64,000 nt of DNA from Gammaproteobacteria bacterium (GCA_021731145.1 JAKFXX010000027.1:1-64000), one strand, 5' to 3'. Positions 7,617 through 31,140 are shown, counted from the first letter of the stretch. Notes: generated by a model from the letters alone, not told the origin. A program made the numbers and translations.

Positions 7617-8486
7617 ATGAATGAATTGATTTCTAAAAGACGCTGCTCTTCAAGCGGTGCCTTGCTGGTGACGGCCCTGCTGTTTTTTTCAGGCAGCGCT
7701 GGCGCTGGCTATGCGATGACCGCGAAAGATATGCAAATGCTGCCATCCTATTGCAGTCAACTCTCGGCTGACAATTACGAAGCCAATGCTCAAGCGTACC
7801 GGATCGCTGGCTCTTTTCCGGCAGGGATGCCCCATGGTCATCATTACTGCCATGGATTGAAATCTATCGCACGTGCCACCGCACAGTCCACAAACCGGCG
7901 CGAGATACAAGAGAATCTGCAAGCCGCAGTGGGTGAGTTCCGCTATGTGTTGGGCCATACCGGAGTGTCTTCGGAGTATTATCCCTACCTGGCCATGGTC
8001 AGAGCGGATCTCGGACGGGTCTATGATCGTCTGGGAAAGCCTGGAGACAGTTCGCAGGAGTTTATGGAGGCGATCCGCCTGAAGCCTGATTATGTTGCGG
8101 CTTATATCGGCTTGATCGACTTCTACCGGAAACTTGGTAACCGTGGAGAGGCATTGAAAGTTGCTCAGGATGGGCTCGCTCATGTACCGGAATCCAAGAC
8201 ATTGCAGCGGCGCTACCGTGATTTGGGTGGGAAATTGCCTTATCCGACCCCTATCGTTAGCGAATCAAAAGCAGCCAGTTCGGCCGAAGCCCCTTCGAGT
8301 AATGCAGCAGCGCCTAATGTGGCCGCGCCTGATAACGACAACAACACCACGGCGGCAGAGCCACCGGCAACCTCATCTCCCACGGATGATCAAAAACCGC
8401 CCCAGGAAGCCAAGCCCCAAGAGCCAAAAATAGGCTCCCCAACTAACCCGTGGTGCCGCTTTTGTCCGCCGCCTGAATTGCAGTAG
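7617..8486 (+). CDS. Exported TPR protein at edge of polysaccharide cluster
   Basis: A 289-residue protein with an N-terminal signal peptide (hydrophobic ALLVTALLFFSGSAGA at about 15-30). A cysteine-bearing region follows (SYCSQL, HHYCHGL), then two or three TPR helices (about 115-195, DLGRVYDRLGKPGDSSQEF and LKPDYVAAYIGLIDFYRKLG). A low-complexity Ala/Pro/Ser/Asn linker leads to a short conserved-looking tail, NPWCRFCPPP. It is probably periplasmic and may scaffold polysaccharide assembly; that role is inferred from position. No good ribosome site precedes the ATG. A 6-codon upstream ORF (7600-7620) overlaps its start. Its 3' end overlaps the convergent gene by 44 bases. Confidence 0.7.
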   Translation: MNELISKRRCSSSGALLVTALLFFSGSAGAGYAMTAKDMQMLPSYCSQLSADNYEANAQAYRIAGSFPAGMPHGHHYCHGLKSIARATAQSTNRREIQENLQAAVGEFRYVLGHTGVSSEYYPYLAMVRADLGRVYDRLGKPGDSSQEFMEAIRLKPDYVAAYIGLIDFYRKLGNRGEALKVAQDGLAHVPESKTLQRRYRDLGGKLPYPTPIVSESKAASSAEAPSSNAAAPNVAAPDNDNNTTAAEPPATSSPTDDQKPPQEAKPQEPKIGSPTNPWCRFCPPPELQ

Positions 8487-11400
8487 CCAAGTCAGCCTCC
8501 ATCCACGCCCTGAGTTTTTGCTCCAGGTCTTCCGCAACCTCGGGGTGGTGATCAAGCACGTTCGAGTAGCATCCGGGGTCATTTGTCAGGTCAAACAATT
8601 TGTGGATTTCTCCGTTACGCATCGGCTGATAGGTGAATTTCCACCTTTCGGTTCTAATCATCCTATCCTTCGCGCGGACGATAATTTCCTGGTATTCCGG
8701 CTTGATCGCCAGCGTGCCGTTTCGCTTATCCGGCACTTCGAGCAAATCAGGCAGGTCGGGGTAATGCAGATGATCCGGAGGCATGCCCGGCGGTGTTGTT
8801 AGCCAGATGCCAGTTTCATTGTGAGCAGTCAAGCCAAGGTTGACATCGCGGTTTTCCATATAGGGTACGAGCGATACCCCCTCCATTTCCGGTGGTTTCT
8901 CCATGCCAAGGAGATCCAGTAGCGTGGGTGCAATGTCCACGGTCCGCGTGATGTGTGAAACCGTGCCACCTGGTGGTTTGCGCGGATCCTTGATGATTAA
9001 TGGGATATGTGCGCTATGATCACCCATGACGCTGTTTCCTTGTCCCCATGTCTCGTGTTCAAAGAACTCCATGCCATGATCACTGTAGATGACGATGACG
9101 GTATTTTCTTCAATGCCGCAGGCCTTGATGTGTGCAACAATCCTGGCTACTTCATCATCAAAACTCTTCACGCAGCCATCGTAGAGATCAATGATCTGAT
9201 CAAGGTCGAACTCCTTTTTGCTATCACCCTGACGGCGGATGATCTCAAATGGATCCCGCAGGCGAGCCATCACGAATTTTGATTCGCCCCGGTAGGCAGG
9301 GTCTGAGTACAGCGTGTAATAAGGATATTCTGATCCAAAAGGCGGATGAGTGGTTGCCATGAAGATATTCAGGAAAAACGGCTGTTCTTTGGCGGACAAA
9401 TCGCTGATCATCGCCCGCGCATCACGTCCGATCTCGCGCGTCAGAGGGATGCCGGCGAGGTAATACAACTCAGGCAGGAAGCGCTTGCCGAAGCGATTGT
9501 GGGTAAACAGGGAAAGAAACAGGCGCAAATCCTTTGGTCCCTGGCGGATCAGATATTTCAGGCTCCACTGATCTTTGGGCAGATCGAGCTGCTGAAACCC
9601 CAGCTTGAATTTGCCCATGTCGGCCGCCGACCAGTCCCCCACTACCGCAGTGTGGTACCCCGCCTGCGACAGCAGCCAGGGCAGCGCAGGCATAGGCAAA
9701 GCGAGTTCATCATCTCCCGCGAAATTGTCCCGGATGCCGTGCGTGTGCGGCCAGGTTCCAGTCAGCAGTGAGATCAGGCTAGGGGCGGTGCGGGCACAAG
9801 GCACATAGCATTGGGTGAAGTGTGTTCCTTGTTGTGCAAGGGCATCCAGGTGCGGGGTGAGGTGGCGATGATACTTGTCAGCTTGCAGGCGATCTGCCCG
9901 CAAGGTGTCGGAGCCGATCATGACGATGTTGGGCTGCCCCGCTTTGCTGCCTGGCGGCGCCTTGCCCGGCACGGCCTCTCGAGATGCCGATAGCAGCCGC
10001 GCGCCCAATACGACAATAGCAGCTAATGTCGTCCAGACGAGCAGTGCGGCCCCGTCTTTATTCAAGGCGGATTTGGCAAGAGCAAGCAGCGCCGCCGTAC
10101 CTCCCACGGCAATCAGCGCCCACTGAGCGCGACGAAGCTTCGAGGGGGATAGCCACTGCCAGAGGGGATAGAAACGGCTGAGCCGATAATGTGAAGAGGC
10201 CGCGATTGTTGCCGGCAAGTAGAGCAATTGCCGGCAAAATTGCAAAAAGGTAAGGAGGGTGACGCCACATATCGCGGCTGCGATTGCCAAGGGGGTGTTG
10301 AACTCCATATCAAGGGCCAGACTCAGGCAGGTATAGACGGCTATGCCTGTAGTGGCCATCAAACCGCTCAATATTCCTCCCCAGCATGCAAGGCGCCCGA
10401 CGGCATACAGCGAGTATATGGAATAGTAACGCTGGATCTCTTCCCGTATCTGGGGGCCGGTGCGCGAGAAATCCGTGATTGATTTGAGCAAAAGAATCAA
10501 CGTGAACGCGGCAGCCACCGAGGCTACGGTTGCGGCTCCGGTAATGAGCGTTTCCGCAGGGGCAGTAGCAAGCGCGGACGCCAACACAAGCCCCATAATT
10601 GTTGCCAGTGGCGCCAAGCCGGGCGCGACATAATAGGAATCCTGCCGGGATTGCTTGCCTGCCAGCGGCTTGTCGGTGATGCCGCGAATCTCTCCCAGCG
10701 TGGCGGCCAGACGCACGAGAAAAAAACGGGTTCGGGGCCAGCTTACGGAAAACACGGCGGATCCGAGATATTCCGCGAGCTTGCGCCACATATACAGGGG
10801 GATGGCTTGCCCCTTATGATGCACGCGGGAGACCGAGCGCGAGCGCTGGTAGCTTTTTTGAAGGATATAGCGGAACTCGAACCGTTCAAGATCTACATAA
10901 TGATGCTGTACCACGTCGGGTACATACTGGATCTTTTCACCCGCCGTGAGCGCACGCAGCACGAACTCGCTGTCCTCGCCCCCACCGAGGTCATGGCCGT
11001 GCGGCCCCAACTCGGTGGAAAAGCCGCCAATCCGATCAAATACCTCGCGTTTCAGGAATAAATTGCCTCCGCCTGGCAATGGTAACTGTCCCTCGGGAGT
11101 GACGGATTGAGGTTGATTACCATAGTCATAGCGTGGCACAGGAAGAGGGTAAATTCGATAACGACCCGTGTCATGCACCCACACCGGTTCTGAACCATTC
11201 CAATCCGGCAAGATGCGTCCGCAAAACAACGTGGCCTGCGGATAATCGCTGATGGCGTTGAAAATACCATTTAAGAAATTGGGGTCGACGCGATGATCGT
11301 CATCGACCATTGCCACAAACATGGAAGTAAGCACAGGAATTGCGCGATTCAGGGCGTGTGATTTTCCGGGCGTTTTTTCTTCCAGCCAGGTTAATGGAAG

Positions 11401-11589
11401 ATAATTTTTATTATCCGTATCCCTTGTATATTGTTCAAGAAAGTCCGCCGTTCCATCGGAGCAGGCATTGGCAACGACCAGGATGTCGATCTGTCGGTTA
11501 TCCGGTCGTGCAGCCTGATTGATCGAAGCCAGTGTTTTCTCAAGCAAACCCACGCGGTTATGGGTGCAGATTAATATCGTGAGATCCAT
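8443..11589 (-). CDS. GT2 glycosyltransferase - membrane - sulfatase-fold fusion
   Basis: A single 1048-residue frame joins two enzymes. Residues 1-300 are a GT-A family 2 glycosyltransferase (MDLTILICTHNR; acidic metal motif DDD at 96-98; GGEDSEF near 203). Residues 325-530 contain about six hydrophobic segments. Residues 553-1040 are an alkaline-phosphatase/sulfatase-superfamily domain with metal motifs GSDTLRADR (559-567) and IYSDHGMEFF. At the place of the formylglycine Cys the sequence is TAPSL (601-605) instead of CxPSR. Threonine is the nucleophile in phosphoethanolamine and phosphoglycerol transferases, so a phospho-substituent transferase acting on the nascent glycan is more likely than a true sulfatase. 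It is the last gene of the cluster. Confidence 0.85.
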   Translation of the reverse strand: MDLTILICTHNRVGLLEKTLASINQAARPDNRQIDILVVANACSDGTADFLEQYTRDTDNKNYLPLTWLEEKTPGKSHALNRAIPVLTSMFVAMVDDDHRVDPNFLNGIFNAISDYPQATLFCGRILPDWNGSEPVWVHDTGRYRIYPLPVPRYDYGNQPQSVTPEGQLPLPGGGNLFLKREVFDRIGGFSTELGPHGHDLGGGEDSEFVLRALTAGEKIQYVPDVVQHHYVDLERFEFRYILQKSYQRSRSVSRVHHKGQAIPLYMWRKLAEYLGSAVFSVSWPRTRFFLVRLAATLGEIRGITDKPLAGKQSRQDSYYVAPGLAPLATIMGLVLASALATAPAETLITGAATVASVAAAFTLILLLKSITDFSRTGPQIREEIQRYYSIYSLYAVGRLACWGGILSGLMATTGIAVYTCLSLALDMEFNTPLAIAAAICGVTLLTFLQFCRQLLYLPATIAASSHYRLSRFYPLWQWLSPSKLRRAQWALIAVGGTAALLALAKSALNKDGAALLVWTTLAAIVVLGARLLSASREAVPGKAPPGSKAGQPNIVMIGSDTLRADRLQADKYHRHLTPHLDALAQQGTHFTQCYVPCARTAPSLISLLTGTWPHTHGIRDNFAGDDELALPMPALPWLLSQAGYHTAVVGDWSAADMGKFKLGFQQLDLPKDQWSLKYLIRQGPKDLRLFLSLFTHNRFGKRFLPELYYLAGIPLTREIGRDARAMISDLSAKEQPFFLNIFMATTHPPFGSEYPYYTLYSDPAYRGESKFVMARLRDPFEIIRRQGDSKKEFDLDQIIDLYDGCVKSFDDEVARIVAHIKACGIEENTVIVIYSDHGMEFFEHETWGQGNSVMGDHSAHIPLIIKDPRKPPGGTVSHITRTVDIAPTLLDLLGMEKPPEMEGVSLVPYMENRDVNLGLTAHNETGIWLTTPPGMPPDHLHYPDLPDLLEVPDKRNGTLAIKPEYQEIIVRAKDRMIRTERWKFTYQPMRNGEIHKLFDLTNDPGCYSNVLDHHPEVAEDLEQKLRAWMEADLATAIQAADKSGTTG

Positions 11590-11708
11590 GAACTTCCTAA
11601 ATTAGCCACTCTTGATCGTGAGAAGCCGGAATCGAAACACCATTTGGTTCCTAACCATAACCAGAAACCGAGTCTCCAGACGTGCGCGAGAACTGTAACC
11701 GGCTGCGT

Positions 11709-12410
11709 TTATTTGGATGTAATTCTCCATATGGATGTACGGTGTGGCTGCGGATCCGATGGTACGACGCCAAGATAATCGAGGTATTGGTATTGTCCAA
11801 GCAAGGTTCGGATGATCCCATAGCGTGACCTCTCCATATTGTCCACCATGAGCCACCCGCCATCCTTGATTTTTGGCAGGGCGCGGAACGCGCAAGACGG
11901 CCTCGCTCGACCATCGACTGTTACAAGGTCAAAGCTTCCATCTGGGTAATCGTCAATGGCATTGACGTAGGTCTCGAAGCTCATTGCCTTGTGCTCCGGC
12001 CACTCCGAGGTGAAACTCTTACAGCCATATGTGGGCGGGTTATCCATTTCCAGTGGTGTTGGCGTGCGCAGAAGGTATGTGCAATTTGTAATCTCAGAAC
12101 GACGCAACCGTTCTGCCAGAAAATGATAGAAGCTCTCGTCATGTTCCACGCTCACAACATGTGCAACGTGTCCGGCCAAAAACAGCGTCGATCCACCAGA
12201 CCCGTATTCGAAAACTTTCATGGGGGGCTTTAGGTAGGCCTCCAACCATTCGGTTGCCCTGAAGTTGATCCATGGTTGTTGATCGTCCACAGGATTGTGT
12301 CCGGGCAGCAAAGAGTAGAGCCACTTGGTTGCAAATTTTATTTCAGCGGGATTGCCAAGCAGTGTCTTGCCTGCCATAGCAAATTTTTGTATTGTTGAGG
12401 TACCCCTCAT
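11709..12410 (-). CDS. Class I SAM-dependent methyltransferase, 233 residues
   Basis: The glycine-rich SAM loop VFEYGSGGSTLFLAG and the following acidic VVSVEHDESFYHFL show a Rossmann-fold methyltransferase. FDLVTVDGRARP and GGWLMVDNMERSRY match small methyltransferases of polysaccharide clusters. The start was set at MRGTSTIQK because AAAGGAGAG precedes it with normal spacing; a longer reading starts 13 codons earlier. It lies between a GT2 gene and the GT2-sulfatase fusion; the acceptor, probably a glycan or sugar nucleotide, is unknown. The 119 bases to the next gene show nothing notable. Confidence 0.8.
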   Translation of the reverse strand: MRGTSTIQKFAMAGKTLLGNPAEIKFATKWLYSLLPGHNPVDDQQPWINFRATEWLEAYLKPPMKVFEYGSGGSTLFLAGHVAHVVSVEHDESFYHFLAERLRRSEITNCTYLLRTPTPLEMDNPPTYGCKSFTSEWPEHKAMSFETYVNAIDDYPDGSFDLVTVDGRARPSCAFRALPKIKDGGWLMVDNMERSRYGIIRTLLGQYQYLDYLGVVPSDPQPHRTSIWRITSK

Positions 12411-12450
12411 CCTTTCTCTCCTTTGGTAAACCAATCTTTTAGACGCCAAA

Positions 12451-13470
12451 CTATTCCGGGGTTTTTCCCCTTGGCAGCATCATTCGCAAACCAAATCGCA
12501 GATAGGATGCCGTTGGACGCATCTTCAACGCATTGATCAGGGACTTGTAGGCGGCCAAGCGTCTGCCGTTATGAAAGTTGAAATATGACTGGTTAAAATA
12601 TGCACTGGCAAGACTTTTACGAATCTCATCTGCCCATGGCATGAATTCTGCCATTTCTTTTGACGCGGCGAAAAGGTGCTCCTTAATGTCAATCCCTGAT
12701 AGTACTGCTCGCTCCCGCTGTGACGCTACCGAAAAATAGCCTTGTGTTTCGCATCTTTGCAAATAGACTGGAGCCATAAACATAGCGGTTTTGCAGCACG
12801 CGGCTGCGTAAATCGCCCACTCCGACTCTCGCAGTGGCGGCTGAAGACGGCGCATGGCCTGCTCTGCATCAGCGACGTTGGGGTCGTGCATGTATACGCG
12901 CCGACGCAGGGCGCTCACCCTGTTCCATGCTGCGCGATACTCGATGGATCGCTGAAATGCCATTGGCACAGAAGAGAGTAACGTCCCAAACAGCTCAGAG
13001 TCAAACAGTACAACACCTGCCTGTATTTCGTGGCCTTTGGCTTGTCTGAGCACGCTCTGCATCGCTTGTCTTTGCGACTCATTAAAATGAGAAGCTCTTC
13101 CCCCAAAACCTTTAACACCAAGGTAAACAAGCTCGATCGACGGGTCGCTTTCAAGGATGACCAAGCCTTCCTCCAGGGCATTTGGCGCGAGGAGGTCATC
13201 GTCATCCAGGTGTACAACGATATTGCCTGCCGCCGCCTGAACCCCTTGATCTCGGGCATACGGTTGCTTCATCGGCTGCTCGTTGCGTATGACCCGAACC
13301 CGTGAGCCGAAATCCCTGCGCAACAACTCTGCATTCACAGGTGGCTGTGAGCCATCATCAACAACAACCACCTCCCATTCCTGATGGGTTTGATTGCTAA
13401 CACTGGCTACTGCCTCGTGGAGCAGTGCTGGCCGGTTATGTGTTGGAATAATGACGGATACCAAAGTCAT
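12451..13470 (-). CDS. Family 2 glycosyltransferase
   Basis: A 339-residue cytoplasmic GT-A enzyme starting MTLVSVIIPTHNRPALL, with nucleotide-binding VVVDDGS and metal motif HLDDDDLLAPN near residue 93. The C-terminal 120 residues are helical and lack membrane spans. It is similar in layout to the product of 19960-20922 (same NRPxLLxEA start and LDDDDLLAP motif), so the two are likely paralogues. Donor and acceptor cannot be predicted. Confidence 0.88.
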   Translation of the reverse strand: MTLVSVIIPTHNRPALLHEAVASVSNQTHQEWEVVVVDDGSQPPVNAELLRRDFGSRVRVIRNEQPMKQPYARDQGVQAAAGNIVVHLDDDDLLAPNALEEGLVILESDPSIELVYLGVKGFGGRASHFNESQRQAMQSVLRQAKGHEIQAGVVLFDSELFGTLLSSVPMAFQRSIEYRAAWNRVSALRRRVYMHDPNVADAEQAMRRLQPPLRESEWAIYAAACCKTAMFMAPVYLQRCETQGYFSVASQRERAVLSGIDIKEHLFAASKEMAEFMPWADEIRKSLASAYFNQSYFNFHNGRRLAAYKSLINALKMRPTASYLRFGLRMMLPRGKTPE

Positions 13471-14772: not shown

Positions 14773-15620
14773 CTGCCCCCCGTGAGGCGGTCAGTCAGGC
14801 GGCTCAGGTAATAGCGTGCCGCATGGCCCAAACTACCGTCGTTGCTGCCCAGGCGGATCTTGCGCAACAGCATGGCCGGGGTGTCCGTGCCGAACACGTC
14901 CACGCGGCGGATGCGGAAGCGGTTGACGTCGACGCGATTGAAGCCTGGCTGGGTAGAGAAGGCGGCCCGGTAACCAGTCTTGCGAGTCGCGTCCTCCACC
15001 CGGTCGTCCAGGTGTCCGAAGGGGTAGGCGAGATAGCGCACCTCATGGCCTAGCAGTCCCGCCAGGGCCTGGCGCGATCCGGCCAACTGGTCAATCAATT
15101 GAGCATCACCCAGACCAGGCAGGCTGGCGTGGCTGCGGGTGTGGGATTGAAAACTCGCCCCTCGGTCCTGCATGTCACGGATCTCGTTCGCATCCAGCAG
15201 GGGGTAAGTGACACCCGCAGGGTTGTCCAAACGGGTCCACTCGTCCTGACCGCCGATCAGGTTGCTCACCAGGAACACTGTGAACGGCCAGCCGAGCCGC
15301 TCAAGCACCGGAGTAGCATGCTCTCGCACACCTCGGAAGCCATCATCGAAAGTGATGAGGCAGGCGCCTTCGGGCAGAGCCGGACCACCCTCCAGCCAGT
15401 CCACAAGTGTGTCGATATGCACTGCGCGGTAGCCCTTGTTGTCCAGCGCGCGCATATGTGCAGAAAAATTCTCCGGGGATATCGCATAACGTGCCTCCCA
15501 AGCGTTTTTGGCCTCGCCGACACGGTGGTACATTAGCACCGGCACGCCGCCTGTGCCGTTCATGAGCTTCTCCGGTTGGAGAGTCGAGCGGGCATGCGAA
15601 GCTGCACGTACATCTACCAT
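14769..15620 (-). CDS. Polysaccharide deacetylase (NodB/CE4 fold)
   Basis: A 283-residue carbohydrate esterase 4 domain. GVPVLMYHRVG opens the fold, TFDDGF carries the catalytic and metal Asp residues, SHTRSHASLP gives the metal histidines, and YLAYPFGHLDD is the active-site arginine-replaced segment. It probably removes N-acetyl groups from the glycan built by this cluster. There is no signal peptide, suggesting action on a lipid-linked or cytoplasmic intermediate. It overlaps the sulfotransferase stop by seven bases and the following GT2 start by four. Confidence 0.88.
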   Translation of the reverse strand: MVDVRAASHARSTLQPEKLMNGTGGVPVLMYHRVGEAKNAWEARYAISPENFSAHMRALDNKGYRAVHIDTLVDWLEGGPALPEGACLITFDDGFRGVREHATPVLERLGWPFTVFLVSNLIGGQDEWTRLDNPAGVTYPLLDANEIRDMQDRGASFQSHTRSHASLPGLGDAQLIDQLAGSRQALAGLLGHEVRYLAYPFGHLDDRVEDATRKTGYRAAFSTQPGFNRVDVNRFRIRRVDVFGTDTPAMLLRKIRLGSNDGSLGHAARYYLSRLTDRLTGGR

Positions 15621-16537
15621 GTGTAACCTAACTCCTCGGCCAGGGGCGATACGGCACGTTTCAGCAACCATTTTTCCAATTTACTTACCAGTACCTTTTT
15701 TCCACCCCGTTCCGAGCTGCCCACCTTATTGTCGAGAACGGAATGGTCGATGTGTATGCCAAGGTGTTTCTCAATTTCATTTAAATTCACGCGGCCTTCG
15801 ATGAGGTCTTCGTATCGAATTACAAGGGCATCCAGACTCTTCGCATTTTCCATGTATCCCTTCATGAGATATCGCCAATGTTTGCCGAAGGCCATGGGAG
15901 TGAATACCGGTGCGTCAGGGAATGTGTCATACCAGTTGCGGCCGTATCGGCAATAAGAGCGGTAGGCATCGAGAGGGTTGCGATAGAGAAAAACAAACTG
16001 GGCCTTGGGGTAGAGCCAGCGAAGATAATACGCATGTTCGACGCCCAGCCGGACCTCCTTGATGCCCCAGCGTGAAGCACCGGCCGTCTTTGCGGGATGC
16101 GCAAACAGGGTGTCGAATAATGCCCGGTGGCCCTTGCGCAAATCCGCCAAGGACGGGAACAGATTAGCAATCCAGTTTCCCGACAGTTCCCCAGGGGGAG
16201 TGCCGTCATAATAGTAATCCTGCGGAGGCCAGCCAGCCCGAAAGGCCTTGGTGGTATCCGCCAAGGCTTGGATCATGCCGCATTCGTCGTAAGGCTCGCC
16301 CCAGATCAGTACGTCTTTATCGGACATGATGAGCCGCTGCAACAGTGTTGAGCCGGAACGCCAGCCAGCGGAAAACAGGAAAATGGGCGCCTCATCATCG
16401 CCCACATCCGCAGGCGGACAGGTGGCCAGCAACTCTTCAACACCAGAAACGATGCCCGGATTCTTCTGCAATGCCTGGTGATGGGCAGCACGCGCCTGGG
16501 CTGGGCCGATGAGCGCGTTAGCTAGATATTTCCGCAT
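15614..16537 (-). CDS. PAPS-dependent sulfotransferase
   Basis: A 307-residue P-loop-like sulfotransferase. The 5'-phosphosulfate loop is SAGWRSGSTLLQRL (56-69) and the 3'-phosphate motif is FLYRNPLDAYRSY (about 178-190). VIRYEDLIEG is the usual third conserved element. Located among glycosyltransferases and a deacetylase, it most likely adds sulfate to the polysaccharide. No PAPS synthesis genes are in this window. Confidence 0.85.
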   Translation of the reverse strand: MRKYLANALIGPAQARAAHHQALQKNPGIVSGVEELLATCPPADVGDDEAPIFLFSAGWRSGSTLLQRLIMSDKDVLIWGEPYDECGMIQALADTTKAFRAGWPPQDYYYDGTPPGELSGNWIANLFPSLADLRKGHRALFDTLFAHPAKTAGASRWGIKEVRLGVEHAYYLRWLYPKAQFVFLYRNPLDAYRSYCRYGRNWYDTFPDAPVFTPMAFGKHWRYLMKGYMENAKSLDALVIRYEDLIEGRVNLNEIEKHLGIHIDHSVLDNKVGSSERGGKKVLVSKLEKWLLKRAVSPLAEELGYTW

Positions 16538-20952: not shown

Positions 20953-22917
20953 TCATTTGGATTCTCTGACCCGCATGATCTGGTTGGCTTTCACATTGCG
21001 CAATTTCTGAACCACGCCGCTTGGCCAACGAACTTCTATTTCATCAATCTGCGTGTGCTTGGCGAGGCCGAAATGCAGGCGCTGATGATTTTGCCCCCGC
21101 TCATGTATGCCCCCATCCTGAACTCGTATCTGAGTCACACCGCCGACAGTCACACGCACCACCGCACCGATTCCATCGCGATTGGATGCCGTTCCCGCCA
21201 GGTCAATCTTAATCCAGTGGTTGCCATTTCCAAGATTGCGGTATAGCCGGTAGGTGCCGTTTTCCGAGGGCAGCCCCAGGCTGCGGCCCATGCTTCCGCC
21301 CGTGGCGGTGAAAAGGTCAAGAAATCCGTCGCCATCGAAATCAGCCATCGTGACGGAATCGCCCACACCGAACAGGCTACCGGCCGCGCCTCCCGCTTTG
21401 GAAACGACATCGAAGTGCCCATCTCCCCGATTGAGCAGGAGCAGGTTTTCCTGTTTTCCGATATCGCCCGAGGCCAGCACAAAAAGGTCCACATCCATGT
21501 CGTTGTCGAAGTCGCCAGCAACGACATTTGTGCCTGCAACAGCACGCTCGTTGATGCCTCGCTTGTCACTCTCTTCAACCAGCTTGCCGCCCCGGTTCAT
21601 GAACAGCCGTCCGGGTGCTTCCTCGGCTTTCACAGGGTCGCCGATCGCCGCCAGTTCCGTGATGGCCTCGGAAGAGGTGACTTTTACCGCTATCTGCTGG
21701 TACTTGGGTTTGCCCACCTCAAGTATCTCGCGCGGTGCAGTCACACGCACCTCCCACTGGCCCGGCGCCGTCATGCCGATATAAACACCTGCCTGACTGC
21801 CCGGTGTGTTGGCAGCCATGCCTGTGATGCCTGGCGTTTTAGGTGATAAGTTGAACTTGAAATCCCCAGGATGCGCGCCCTGTTTGCCAAGATAGATGCG
21901 ATCAACCGACAGTGCATTGGCAGGCCAGGCAGGTGAAACCCGGAATGTTAGTTGCCCGGATGAGCTGAAGGTAAACCCCGCCGGTTTGCCTACATTGGCC
22001 TGATCGCTCCGCACATCCGCGATGACCTCCTTGCTGCCAGTTTGGCCGAAAGCGACCGGCCCAGGCGGATTTTTACGCGCCAGGTAGAGGTCAACGAGTC
22101 CATCATTGTCGAAGTCGCCAGCGGCAATGTCCTCATAAGCCGTTTGGGGGAGAAGATCAACTTCCCGTGCGGGCATTTTTGCGGTATCGAACACCTGTGA
22201 AGCCCGGTTATGTGACGAGACCCTGCATGCCAGATCCGGGTGGCTGTTGTTGTTGAGCTCGGTAATTACGCAGAATTTCGGCGACTTTGAGGCGAACTTC
22301 AGCACGTCTGTCGAGGCGGCGAATTTGCCATTTTTCTGAAGAAAGATAAAGGGCGGTTCAATGTTATCGAATCGGCTTTCCGCACCCTCGAACAGATCGA
22401 GCTGACCGTCTCGGTTGAAGTCGTACCACAGGGGCATGCGCGTCCGGCCATAGGGGTTGGATACCCCAACGGCCGCAGCTATGTCTGCGAACTTGTCGCC
22501 CCGATTCAGGAAAAGCCGTTTCGGTTCCGTGCCCACCCCGCGGCCCGCTCCAGTGAGTTGGACCAGCTCCAGATGGCCGTCGTTGTTGAAATCTGCCCAA
22601 GCGGCGCCGTGTTTGTCGCCACCCAGGTCTTCCGGCTTGAAAATTTCTCGCGTTACATCGGCGAAGTGCCCCTTGCCCAGATTTCGATACAGCTTGGCAT
22701 CGTTCAGGTGGTTGGTGACGTAAAGATCAGGCAGACCGTCGCCGTCGAAATCACCCCATGCAGCGCCGTGGGTTATGCCCACATATGCAATACCGGAGGT
22801 CGGCGTAACATCCTCAAACAGGGTGACAGCAACATTGGGGCGACGCAAAAAAGTCACGCCAACGGCTAAAACGACCACCACCGCGATCACAATCAGATAA
22901 CGCAATTTTTTTGACAT
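20953..22917 (-). CDS. Membrane-anchored FG-GAP/VCBS repeat protein with ASPIC/UnbV C-terminus
   Basis: A 654-residue CRTAC1-like protein. One N-terminal membrane anchor (about residues 6-23) is followed by many FG-GAP/VCBS blades, recognised by repeated D-x-D-x-D-G calcium loops such as GDFDGDGLPDLYV, ADFNNDGHLELVQ, GDFDNDGLVDLYL and ADFDGDGFLDLF. The last 80 residues (RDGIGAVVRVTVGG to IDEIEVRWPSGVVQKL) are the ASPIC/UnbV domain. It is probably a periplasmic beta-propeller. Its job in a polysaccharide cluster is unknown; glycan binding or surface adhesion is inference. Confidence 0.85.
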   Translation of the reverse strand: MSKKLRYLIVIAVVVVLAVGVTFLRRPNVAVTLFEDVTPTSGIAYVGITHGAAWGDFDGDGLPDLYVTNHLNDAKLYRNLGKGHFADVTREIFKPEDLGGDKHGAAWADFNNDGHLELVQLTGAGRGVGTEPKRLFLNRGDKFADIAAAVGVSNPYGRTRMPLWYDFNRDGQLDLFEGAESRFDNIEPPFIFLQKNGKFAASTDVLKFASKSPKFCVITELNNNSHPDLACRVSSHNRASQVFDTAKMPAREVDLLPQTAYEDIAAGDFDNDGLVDLYLARKNPPGPVAFGQTGSKEVIADVRSDQANVGKPAGFTFSSSGQLTFRVSPAWPANALSVDRIYLGKQGAHPGDFKFNLSPKTPGITGMAANTPGSQAGVYIGMTAPGQWEVRVTAPREILEVGKPKYQQIAVKVTSSEAITELAAIGDPVKAEEAPGRLFMNRGGKLVEESDKRGINERAVAGTNVVAGDFDNDMDVDLFVLASGDIGKQENLLLLNRGDGHFDVVSKAGGAAGSLFGVGDSVTMADFDGDGFLDLFTATGGSMGRSLGLPSENGTYRLYRNLGNGNHWIKIDLAGTASNRDGIGAVVRVTVGGVTQIRVQDGGIHERGQNHQRLHFGLAKHTQIDEIEVRWPSGVVQKLRNVKANQIMRVRESK

Positions 22918-23020
22918 CTTCGTTCTTATCCCTTTTCTTGCTCGCAACTATGCGATAACAAGGTGAAACCAGTGCATTTGTCTCTTGACGATGGCGAGCG
23001 AGTGCTTGTCGGCGACCCTG

Positions 23021-28832: not shown

Positions 28833-29231
28833 CTATTTGATATCCGAGGGAATTTTTTTCCCTTTCTCGGTACGGTCGAAGTCTTTGTCGAAGCTCACGA
28901 TGGTCAGGTTATATTTTAACGCTACGGCGTACTGATAGGCGTCATCAAAATCAAGGCTGAATTTCTGTGCTGCATCGATCACCGATTCCATGTCCTCCGC
29001 CGATATGGAGGAAACTTTTATTCCAGCGGTAAAAACCATGTCATTCAAAAACTGACGGTAGGCCGCATGCTGCTTTTGCCGAAAGACAATCAACCCAATG
29101 GAATGTAAAGAAAAATCACTTATATAGAGATCATGGCTATCGTATTTAAGCAGTAAGCTGCGTGCTTCTTCAGCCCTGTCTTGCCCCAGTAACACTTCAA
29201 GAAAAATATTGGTGTCCAGTAGCAGCTTCAT
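28833..29231 (-). CDS. PIN-domain ribonuclease toxin (VapC-like)
   Basis: A 132-residue PIN fold: MKLLLDTNIFLEVLL gives the first Asp, ISDFSLHSIGLIV the second region, and SLDFDDAYQYAVALK the acidic pair; FDKDFDRTEKG closes the active site. The start overlaps the antitoxin stop by four bases (ATGA). It is a presumed RNase neutralised by the DUF2281 protein. It lies 11 bases upstream of the wzt start codon. Confidence 0.88.
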   Translation of the reverse strand: MKLLLDTNIFLEVLLGQDRAEEARSLLLKYDSHDLYISDFSLHSIGLIVFRQKQHAAYRQFLNDMVFTAGIKVSSISAEDMESVIDAAQKFSLDFDDAYQYAVALKYNLTIVSFDKDFDRTEKGKKIPSDIK

Positions 29232-29440
29232 TCCCCCATTCTCCAGTCAGAGATTTTGTGTTGAAGCTCAGCCGAAGTATACTTCCCCGCAAGTTCTTTT
29301 AGCGCGCCCGCCCATAAGAAGCTTGGCTTTCCAGGCTTTTTCTTTTCCCTTCTTACCCATAGGAACTCCACAAAATCTTCAACCTCCGCCTGGAGTTCTG
29401 GCGGCAGTTCGTCAATTTTGCGTACAAGATTTTCCCGCAT
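29228..29440 (-). CDS. DUF2281 antitoxin
   Basis: A 70-residue protein of the DUF2281 type: MRENLVRKIDELPPELQAE, DFVEFLW, then a basic linker and KISDWRMGE tail, as in antitoxins paired with PIN toxins. GGAGGTTATC before the ATG is a good ribosome site. It is translationally coupled to the PIN gene. Confidence 0.85.
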   Translation of the reverse strand: MRENLVRKIDELPPELQAEVEDFVEFLWVRREKKKPGKPSFLWAGALKELAGKYTSAELQHKISDWRMGE

Positions 29441-30628: not shown

Positions 30629-30856
30629 CTAGGCCGCCAAATACTGCCTGACATCCACCTGCACGCCCTCGCGGATCGCTTCCTCGCCATGTGAGAGCAG
30701 GGCGCGCGTATCTTTATCAGCGATATACTCTTCGCCACAGTTGTCGCAAACCAGTGCAGGCACATTTTTAAAAACCAGCGTGGTTGGTCCACGCTCTAAT
30801 GTGACGGTAGCGAAACCCGGCTGGGTTTCGCCGTGTTTGCAAATAACACACTTCAT
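30629..30856 (-). CDS. YgiT/MqsA-type zinc-finger antitoxin
   Basis: A 75-residue protein with two CxxC pairs (CVIC at 3-6, CDNC at 37-40) and the GEEYIADKDTRALLSHGEE segment typical of the YgiT-type zinc-finger family (N-terminal half of MqsA). The DNA-binding HTH half of MqsA is absent. It overlaps the DUF4258 gene by four bases. Confidence 0.85.
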   Translation of the reverse strand: MKCVICKHGETQPGFATVTLERGPTTLVFKNVPALVCDNCGEEYIADKDTRALLSHGEEAIREGVQVDVRQYLAA

Positions 30857-31140
30857 GATGGCTTTCTCCGTTTATAAGCCGTTTCCCAGAGCTTAGGATC
30901 GGGTTCATGGGCCGTAATGATAATTGTAGCATCGTCCACGATGTTATTAGCGGCAACTACATGAATTGGCCTTGAACCAACCCACCCCAATACCAGCCGG
31001 CTCGGATACGGTGTGTCATCAAGATAATCCTGAATGACTTCACCGTTTTCCAAAGCGTGCTGTATATCCTGCTCCATAATGCCACGCTCGAACATTCGTC
31101 TAATGGCATGATTCCTGTACATCAGCAGCTTGGCTTTCAT
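30853..31140 (-). CDS. DUF4258 toxin
   Basis: A 95-residue protein with YRNHAIRRMFERGIMEQDI, YLDDTPYPSRLVLGWVG and ATIIITAHEPDPKLWE, as in DUF4258 proteins found beside YgiT-type zinc fingers. It is probably an RNase-like toxin, by analogy with its partner's family. The toxin gene comes first, the order seen in mqsRA-like modules. It begins 30 bases after wzm. Confidence 0.82.
   Translation of the reverse strand: MKAKLLMYRNHAIRRMFERGIMEQDIQHALENGEVIQDYLDDTPYPSRLVLGWVGSRPIHVVAANNIVDDATIIITAHEPDPKLWETAYKRRKPS

Follow-up and report, generated by a model that had tools for sequence, protein, structure and literature searches.

Herein, we describe a gene that joins a GT2 glycosyltransferase, six membrane helices and a sulfatase-fold domain with a predicted threonine nucleophile in a single reading frame. 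The gene occupies positions 8443-11589 on the minus strand of the window (the whole 64,000-nucleotide stretch of gammaproteobacterial DNA that was analyzed, GCA_021731145.1 JAKFXX010000027.1:1-64000). Its protein is a member of a known superfamily; its architecture is modular and its predicted orientation is unusual. The fusion is real and conserved, and our literature search found no paper describing either a GT2/sulfatase-fold fusion or its family.

The frame encodes 1048 amino acids followed by a stop codon, without interruption, and its extent is supported by Pfam and by full-length relatives. Residues 1-305 (10675-11589; this and all other parts of the fusion lie on the minus strand) form the GT2 domain. 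Glycos_transf_2 (PF00535) matches residues 4-187 with 54 bits (cut-off 23), PF13641 also scores above its cut-off, and the DDD (residues 96-98) and GGED motifs (the latter as GGGED) are present, with D96 and D97 kept in a six-row family alignment. By these motifs, the domain reads as a GT2 of the GT-A type with an acidic metal motif and a catalytic acidic residue. It is followed by TM0 (residues 325-343; 10561-10617), identified by hydropathy, alignment and AlphaFold as an extra helix of fused forms that is missing from nearly all stand-alone forms, and by TM1-TM5 (residues 348-534; 9988-10548), for which hydropathy, loop statistics and AlphaFold were used and whose TM1-TM2 (FSRTGP) and TM3-TM4 loops are rich in Lys and Arg. 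Hydropathy and the AlphaFold model (111-row alignment, mean pLDDT 88.6, pTM 0.72) gave six long membrane helices, at residues 326-342, 345-373, 390-425, 432-457, 482-508 and 514-533. Residues 552-1040 (8470-9936) then form a sulfatase-fold domain of the alkaline-phosphatase (AP) superfamily, including its C-terminal subdomain, as seen in fold matches and in the Sulfatase model PF00884, which covers residues 553-896 with 150 bits (cut-off 25) in the same frame as the GT2 domain. The fusion is the sole PF00884 protein in the source genome. Pfam, hydropathy and AlphaFold thus confirm the original prediction of a complete GT2 domain, about six membrane segments and a complete AP-superfamily domain in one frame at these coordinates, for which it had named no strand.

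When 84,980 species genomes were scanned, 187 loci with relatives were found, and locus counts were made on the best 80. Among these best 80 of 187 loci, a stop-free fusion to a homologous GT2 was found in 53, and a fusion to a different GT2 class in five; eight loci start at or near a contig end, where the fusion state is not judgeable. Intact stand-alone forms numbered 14, and in 12 of them the cluster also contained the same GT2 class as a separate gene, which in most cases lay 1-4 kb upstream. Taken together, the fusion in 53/80 loci and the separate in-cluster GT2 in 12/14 stand-alone loci show a strong functional coupling between the GT2 and the membrane/AP part. Isolates with fused forms include Thiobacillus thioparus DSM 505, T. 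denitrificans RG, Sulfuricella sp. T08, Aromatoleum anaerobium and Thauera terpenica. A frameshift or assembly artifact joining two genes, which the original prediction had named as an outcome that would undo it, is ruled out by stop-free fusions in many independent genomes, isolates included; the fusion is a true one, and the search for the same domain pair in other genomes succeeded.

Within the same GTDB family, fused homologs were found in four other genomes: two with overall identities of 70% and 51%, and two, from species of the window's own genus, with 73% identity across the membrane/sulfatase part. One further genome has adjacent genes instead of a fusion, with a different GT2. The family is limited and sporadic: of 369 genomes sampled from the class, 22 had relatives; no match other than the source genome turned up at E 1e-40 among 398 genomes drawn from across the phylum; and no plasmid record covered 80% of the fusion query. 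Within Thiobacillus, Nitrotoga, Sulfuricella, Chromatiaceae, Thauera and related taxa, however, the family is widespread.

Phylogenies indicate that the GT is a replaceable module, repeatedly swapped among three classes on a constant membrane/phosphatase part. The GT tree unites GT2 class B in a single, fully supported clade. The membrane/sulfatase tree, in contrast, requires 9 changes of the class B label and 5 of the class C label, of which at least 7 and at least 4, respectively, are forced by well-supported branches; both trees were built with FastTree and carry local support only. Divergence within the window's own genus points the same way, with the GT being 46% identical versus the 73% of the remainder.

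The active site of the sulfatase-fold domain was read from alignments to solved structures and to relatives. At the position of the sulfatase signature CxPSR, the fusion has T601-A-P-S-L (within RTAPSL). The predicted nucleophile, Thr601 (9787-9789), falls, in alignments to solved sulfatases, on their Cys or engineered Ser and sits at the start of a helix in the AlphaFold model, and Thr is found at this position in 95/96 rows of the relatives' alignment. A nucleophile at another Ser or Cys was ruled out, as it is T601 that lines up with the catalytic residue, and S604 corresponds to the Ser at +3 in CxPS. Asp561 (9907-9909) is a predicted metal ligand; just before it, where sulfatases have the first Asp of their DD pair, the family has Ser, Ala, Thr or Cys. 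Asp837-His838 (9076-9081), in SDHG, are predicted metal ligands as well. The sulfatase motif GKWH becomes GDW(S/A/C) in the family: an invariant Asp652 (9634-9636) replaces the Lys, and the His is Ser, Ala or Cys. D561 and T601 align with D268 and T302 of E. coli YejM, and D561, T601, D837 and H838 with E245, T288, D461 and H462 of EptC. The earlier claim that formylglycine cannot form holds up here, since Thr takes the Cys/Ser position, and the metal/nucleophile set is akin to that of the Thr-type phospho-group transferases. Judged by sequence and structure, the AP-fold domain is a sulfatase-type scaffold with a Thr-type site.

The fold places the domain closer to another group. A structure search with the AlphaFold model returned S1 sulfatases, phosphonate monoester hydrolases and YejM with Z scores of 31-37 over spans of ~330-410 residues (31.6 for YejM), while neither EptA nor LtaS was among the fold matches listed. 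The comparison with EptA, LtaS and arylsulfatases proposed in the original prediction bears out a kinship with the transferases for the site, which is of the Thr type. The body is another matter: both its sequence and its fold are nearer to those of S1 sulfatases and phosphonate monoester hydrolases than to those of EptA or LtaS. Curated models scored far below their cut-offs on the fusion (LtaS, 34 bits against 970; YejM, 31.5 against 825; CptA, 20.7 against 404).

Our preferred reading, held tentatively, is that the fusion serves a surface-polysaccharide pathway as a bifunctional enzyme of the inner membrane, with both domains in the cytoplasm and with Thr-type phospho-group transfer, or less likely hydrolysis, acting on the glycan before export. 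At the cytoplasmic face, the GT2 domain would extend a glycan, either lipid-linked or growing, by a sugar. The adjoining membrane-anchored Thr-nucleophile metal site would form a covalent phospho-threonine intermediate, and would then, ahead of export, transfer (less likely hydrolyze) a phospho group on this glycan. The donor may be a phospholipid head group. We infer the chemistry, the donor and the order of these steps. Two features tip the balance slightly toward transfer: the site, which is of the YejM/EptC type, and the conserved five-helix part, with which a lipid donor would fit well. That modification is coupled to chain assembly had been one of the options in the original prediction, and it is a sensible reading.

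The gene neighborhood is that of a polysaccharide cluster, and in the window includes several GT2 genes, a deacetylase, WecB, WbsX, a sulfotransferase and an ABC exporter with Wzt_C. The sulfotransferase (15614-16537, minus strand; PF13469, 54.6 bits) is a real one of the PAPS type, as had been noticed before. A convergent TPR protein (7617-8486, plus strand), ending in NPWCRFCPPPELQ and recognized by Pfam and locus comparison as a conserved neighbor, overlaps the 3' end of the fusion gene. Neighbors recurring in the best 80 of 187 loci are GT2, GT4, deacetylase, MBOAT, sulfotransferase and the convergent TPR protein. A sulfotransferase lies near the fusion or its relative in 65 of these 80 loci, and more than half of the loci that lack it are contigs of <18 kb. 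A capping role tied to Wzt, prompted by the Wzt_C of the window, was rejected, as Wzt or Wzm occurs in only 2-3 other loci. No activated phospho-alcohol donor gene recurs in the clusters of the best 80 of 187 loci, and PF04464 (CDP-glycerol glycerophosphotransferase) is absent from the source genome; both were counted against a phosphotransferase. PF04464 is present as a third domain in a Nitrotoga relative (L075), which was counted in favor of a phospho-group reaction.

Alternatively, the domain may be a cytoplasm-facing phosphatase or phosphodiesterase that strips a phospho group from a glycan carrier, or that drives synthesis by removing a by-product that would inhibit it (nucleotide from the GT, or PAP from the sulfotransferase). 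This reading ranks closely behind the preferred one, albeit rather unlikely in itself. YejM, with the same Thr site, has been reported to be a metal-dependent phosphatase whose activity requires the corresponding Thr site (PMC7576196). The nearest sequences are those of S1 sulfatases and phosphonate monoester hydrolases, which hydrolyze, a point counted against phosphotransfer, and the nearest solved relatives, phosphonate monoester hydrolases included, are hydrolases too; the frequent sulfotransferase neighbors also speak for such a role. However, nucleotides and PAP are normally cleared by housekeeping enzymes, the presence of the five-helix part in every relative suggests that the substrate is a lipid or is linked to one, and the fusion partner is a GT rather than a sulfotransferase.

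One option of the original prediction was that the sugar may be added on the cytoplasmic side and the phospho group on the periplasmic side; the domain would then be a periplasmic transferase like EptA or LtaS, with the GT working in the cytoplasm. The Thr nucleophile with its D/D-H ligand set, as in LtaS, EptA and YejM, and the five-helix stand-alone form, which resembles these proteins, favor that arrangement, yet it is improbable and is contradicted by the topology prediction. The number of helices from the GT2 to the phosphatase-fold domain is even in all three fused classes, and a periplasmic domain would fit only if one of the six failed to cross the bilayer. The Lys/Arg bias is strong and puts the C-terminal domain inside, with mean Lys+Arg counts of 5.65 in the TM1-TM2 loop, 6.19 in the TM3-TM4 loop and 4.07 in the linker to the domain, versus 0.17, 0.26 and 1.13 in the opposite loops. 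Stand-alone forms, which have five membrane helices instead of six, have one helix instead of two ahead of the conserved FSRTGP loop, and their N-terminus is uncharged. Class C fusions have eight helices, two of which are contributed by the class C GT2 itself. In one stand-alone form (L030), the extra helix is still present and the N-terminus is positively charged, which fits a later split of a fused form.

GT2 enzymes use cytoplasmic nucleotide sugars. This need, the even helix count and the Lys/Arg-rich loops on the side of both domains lead to the prediction that the GT2 and phosphatase-fold domains both face the cytoplasm. When the same procedure was applied to controls, the domains of YejM and EptC were placed outside, as known, and four helices were called for E. 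coli OpgB. Single-sequence helix calls are weaker than family averages, and three stand-alone relatives received only four calls, one helix falling under the threshold. The catalytic domain of known membrane-anchored Thr-type transferases lies outside the membrane, and this was counted against the cytoplasmic placement.

It is quite improbable that the sulfatase-fold domain is non-catalytic and instead links the GT to the membrane complex as a binding or regulatory partner. YejM-like proteins are signal transducers (E. coli yejM is annotated as lapC, an LPS signal transducer), and the repeated swapping of GTs, with the TM-AP part unchanged, could be in keeping with a docking platform. However, D561, T601, H748, D837 and H838 are kept throughout the alignment of about 95 diverged relatives, a pattern that points to catalysis. 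A sulfatase trimming the sulfate placed by the neighboring sulfotransferase is very improbable, for although the S1 sulfatase fold (Z up to 37), the sulfotransferase neighbors and several FGE-domain proteins in the source genome could be cited for it, Thr precludes formylglycine, and the replacement of the sulfate-binding Lys and His of GKWH and of the first of the paired N-terminal Asp residues argues that the fusion is not a type I sulfatase.

If both domains are cytoplasmic, a sulfatase-type scaffold would have been re-used with a Thr nucleophile for glycan modification before export. A wider generalization, which is speculative and doubtful at present, is that there exists a class of cytoplasm-facing Thr-nucleophile sulfatase-fold phosphotransferases that sit beside interchangeable GT modules and phospho-decorate each polysaccharide unit as it is built, before export. 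The natural swapping of GTs, with the membrane/phosphatase part kept constant, gives a way to learn which sugar bears the modification. For sulfur-cycle organisms, the automatic annotation "sulfatase" would be misleading.

Among known systems, S1 sulfatases, choline sulfatase and phosphonate monoester hydrolases (PF00884) have the whole-domain fold in common with the fusion, C-terminal subdomain included, and give the best matches in sequence and structure. The D837-H838 pair and H748 are retained. Unlike S1 sulfatases, the fusion has Thr for the formylglycine-forming Cys/Ser, Asp and Ser/Ala/Cys for the Lys and His of GKWH, and no first Asp of the DD pair, and it is membrane-anchored and joined to a GT. 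LtaS, EptA/EptC and YejM/PbgA share with it the Thr nucleophile, the single N-terminal acidic metal ligand and (EptC, LtaS) the Asp-His pair, and they carry about five helices ahead of the catalytic domain, similar to the fusion family. In contrast to LtaS, EptA and YejM, its domain is predicted to be cytoplasmic, the opposite orientation, and is closer in sequence to S1 sulfatases.

The GT2 enzymes of exopolysaccharide clusters (HpsE, EpsD) have the GT2 domain, the DDD and GGED motifs and the polysaccharide-cluster setting in common with the fusion, which however scores under their equivalog cut-offs and carries a membrane-anchored phosphatase-fold domain. By alignment, Thr at the nucleophile position is not unique to the fusion family, as it is also found in uncharacterized Thr-type sulfatase-like proteins of Leptospira and haloarchaea. 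A Leptospira protein (L131) further shares the membrane part and the ETGIW motif. These Leptospira and haloarchaeal proteins differ in having no GT domain and are about 27-30% identical to the fusion. A search for a link to methyl phosphoramidate transferases led to a Campylobacter phage match that is an ordinary Cys-type sulfatase. Finally, the known enzymes of the superfamily that modify glycans act outside the membrane, whereas the proposed class would act inside.

The convergent neighbour of the fusion gene, located on the plus strand at positions 7617-8486 of the window and corresponding to cluster 4 among the related loci, encodes a TPR protein with a conserved C-terminal tail, G-x-P-x-N-P-(Y/W)-C-R-F-C-P. 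The CxFC motif was present in all relatives examined (57/57). The protein may act in export or assembly, specifically for this cluster.

The genome carrying the window encodes approximately nine proteins with an FGE-sulfatase domain (PF03781), on contigs C3, C4, C9, and C11. Since its sole sulfatase-family protein is the Thr-type fusion, generating formylglycine for sulfatases is probably not their role.

Further genes lie within the polysaccharide cluster on the minus strand. An FG-GAP/ASPIC-UnbV repeat protein is encoded at 20953-22947, and small toxin-antitoxin-like genes were found between Wzt and Wzm (28833-29440 and 30629-31140); one set comprises a PIN-domain protein and a small partner, and the other a YgiT/MqsA-type zinc finger adjoining a small protein.

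Among related loci, a GT2 of a different class (C), which brings two membrane helices of its own, is joined to the same membrane/sulfatase part in L053, L074, L080, L082, L094, and L026. In locus L030, this pair is split between adjacent genes. The fusion protein of a Candidatus Nitrotoga genome (locus L075, positions 8936-13297; 1454 amino acids in total) has an additional, third domain at its C-terminus, which resembles CDP-glycerol:poly(glycerophosphate) glycerophosphotransferase (PF04464, 45 bits).
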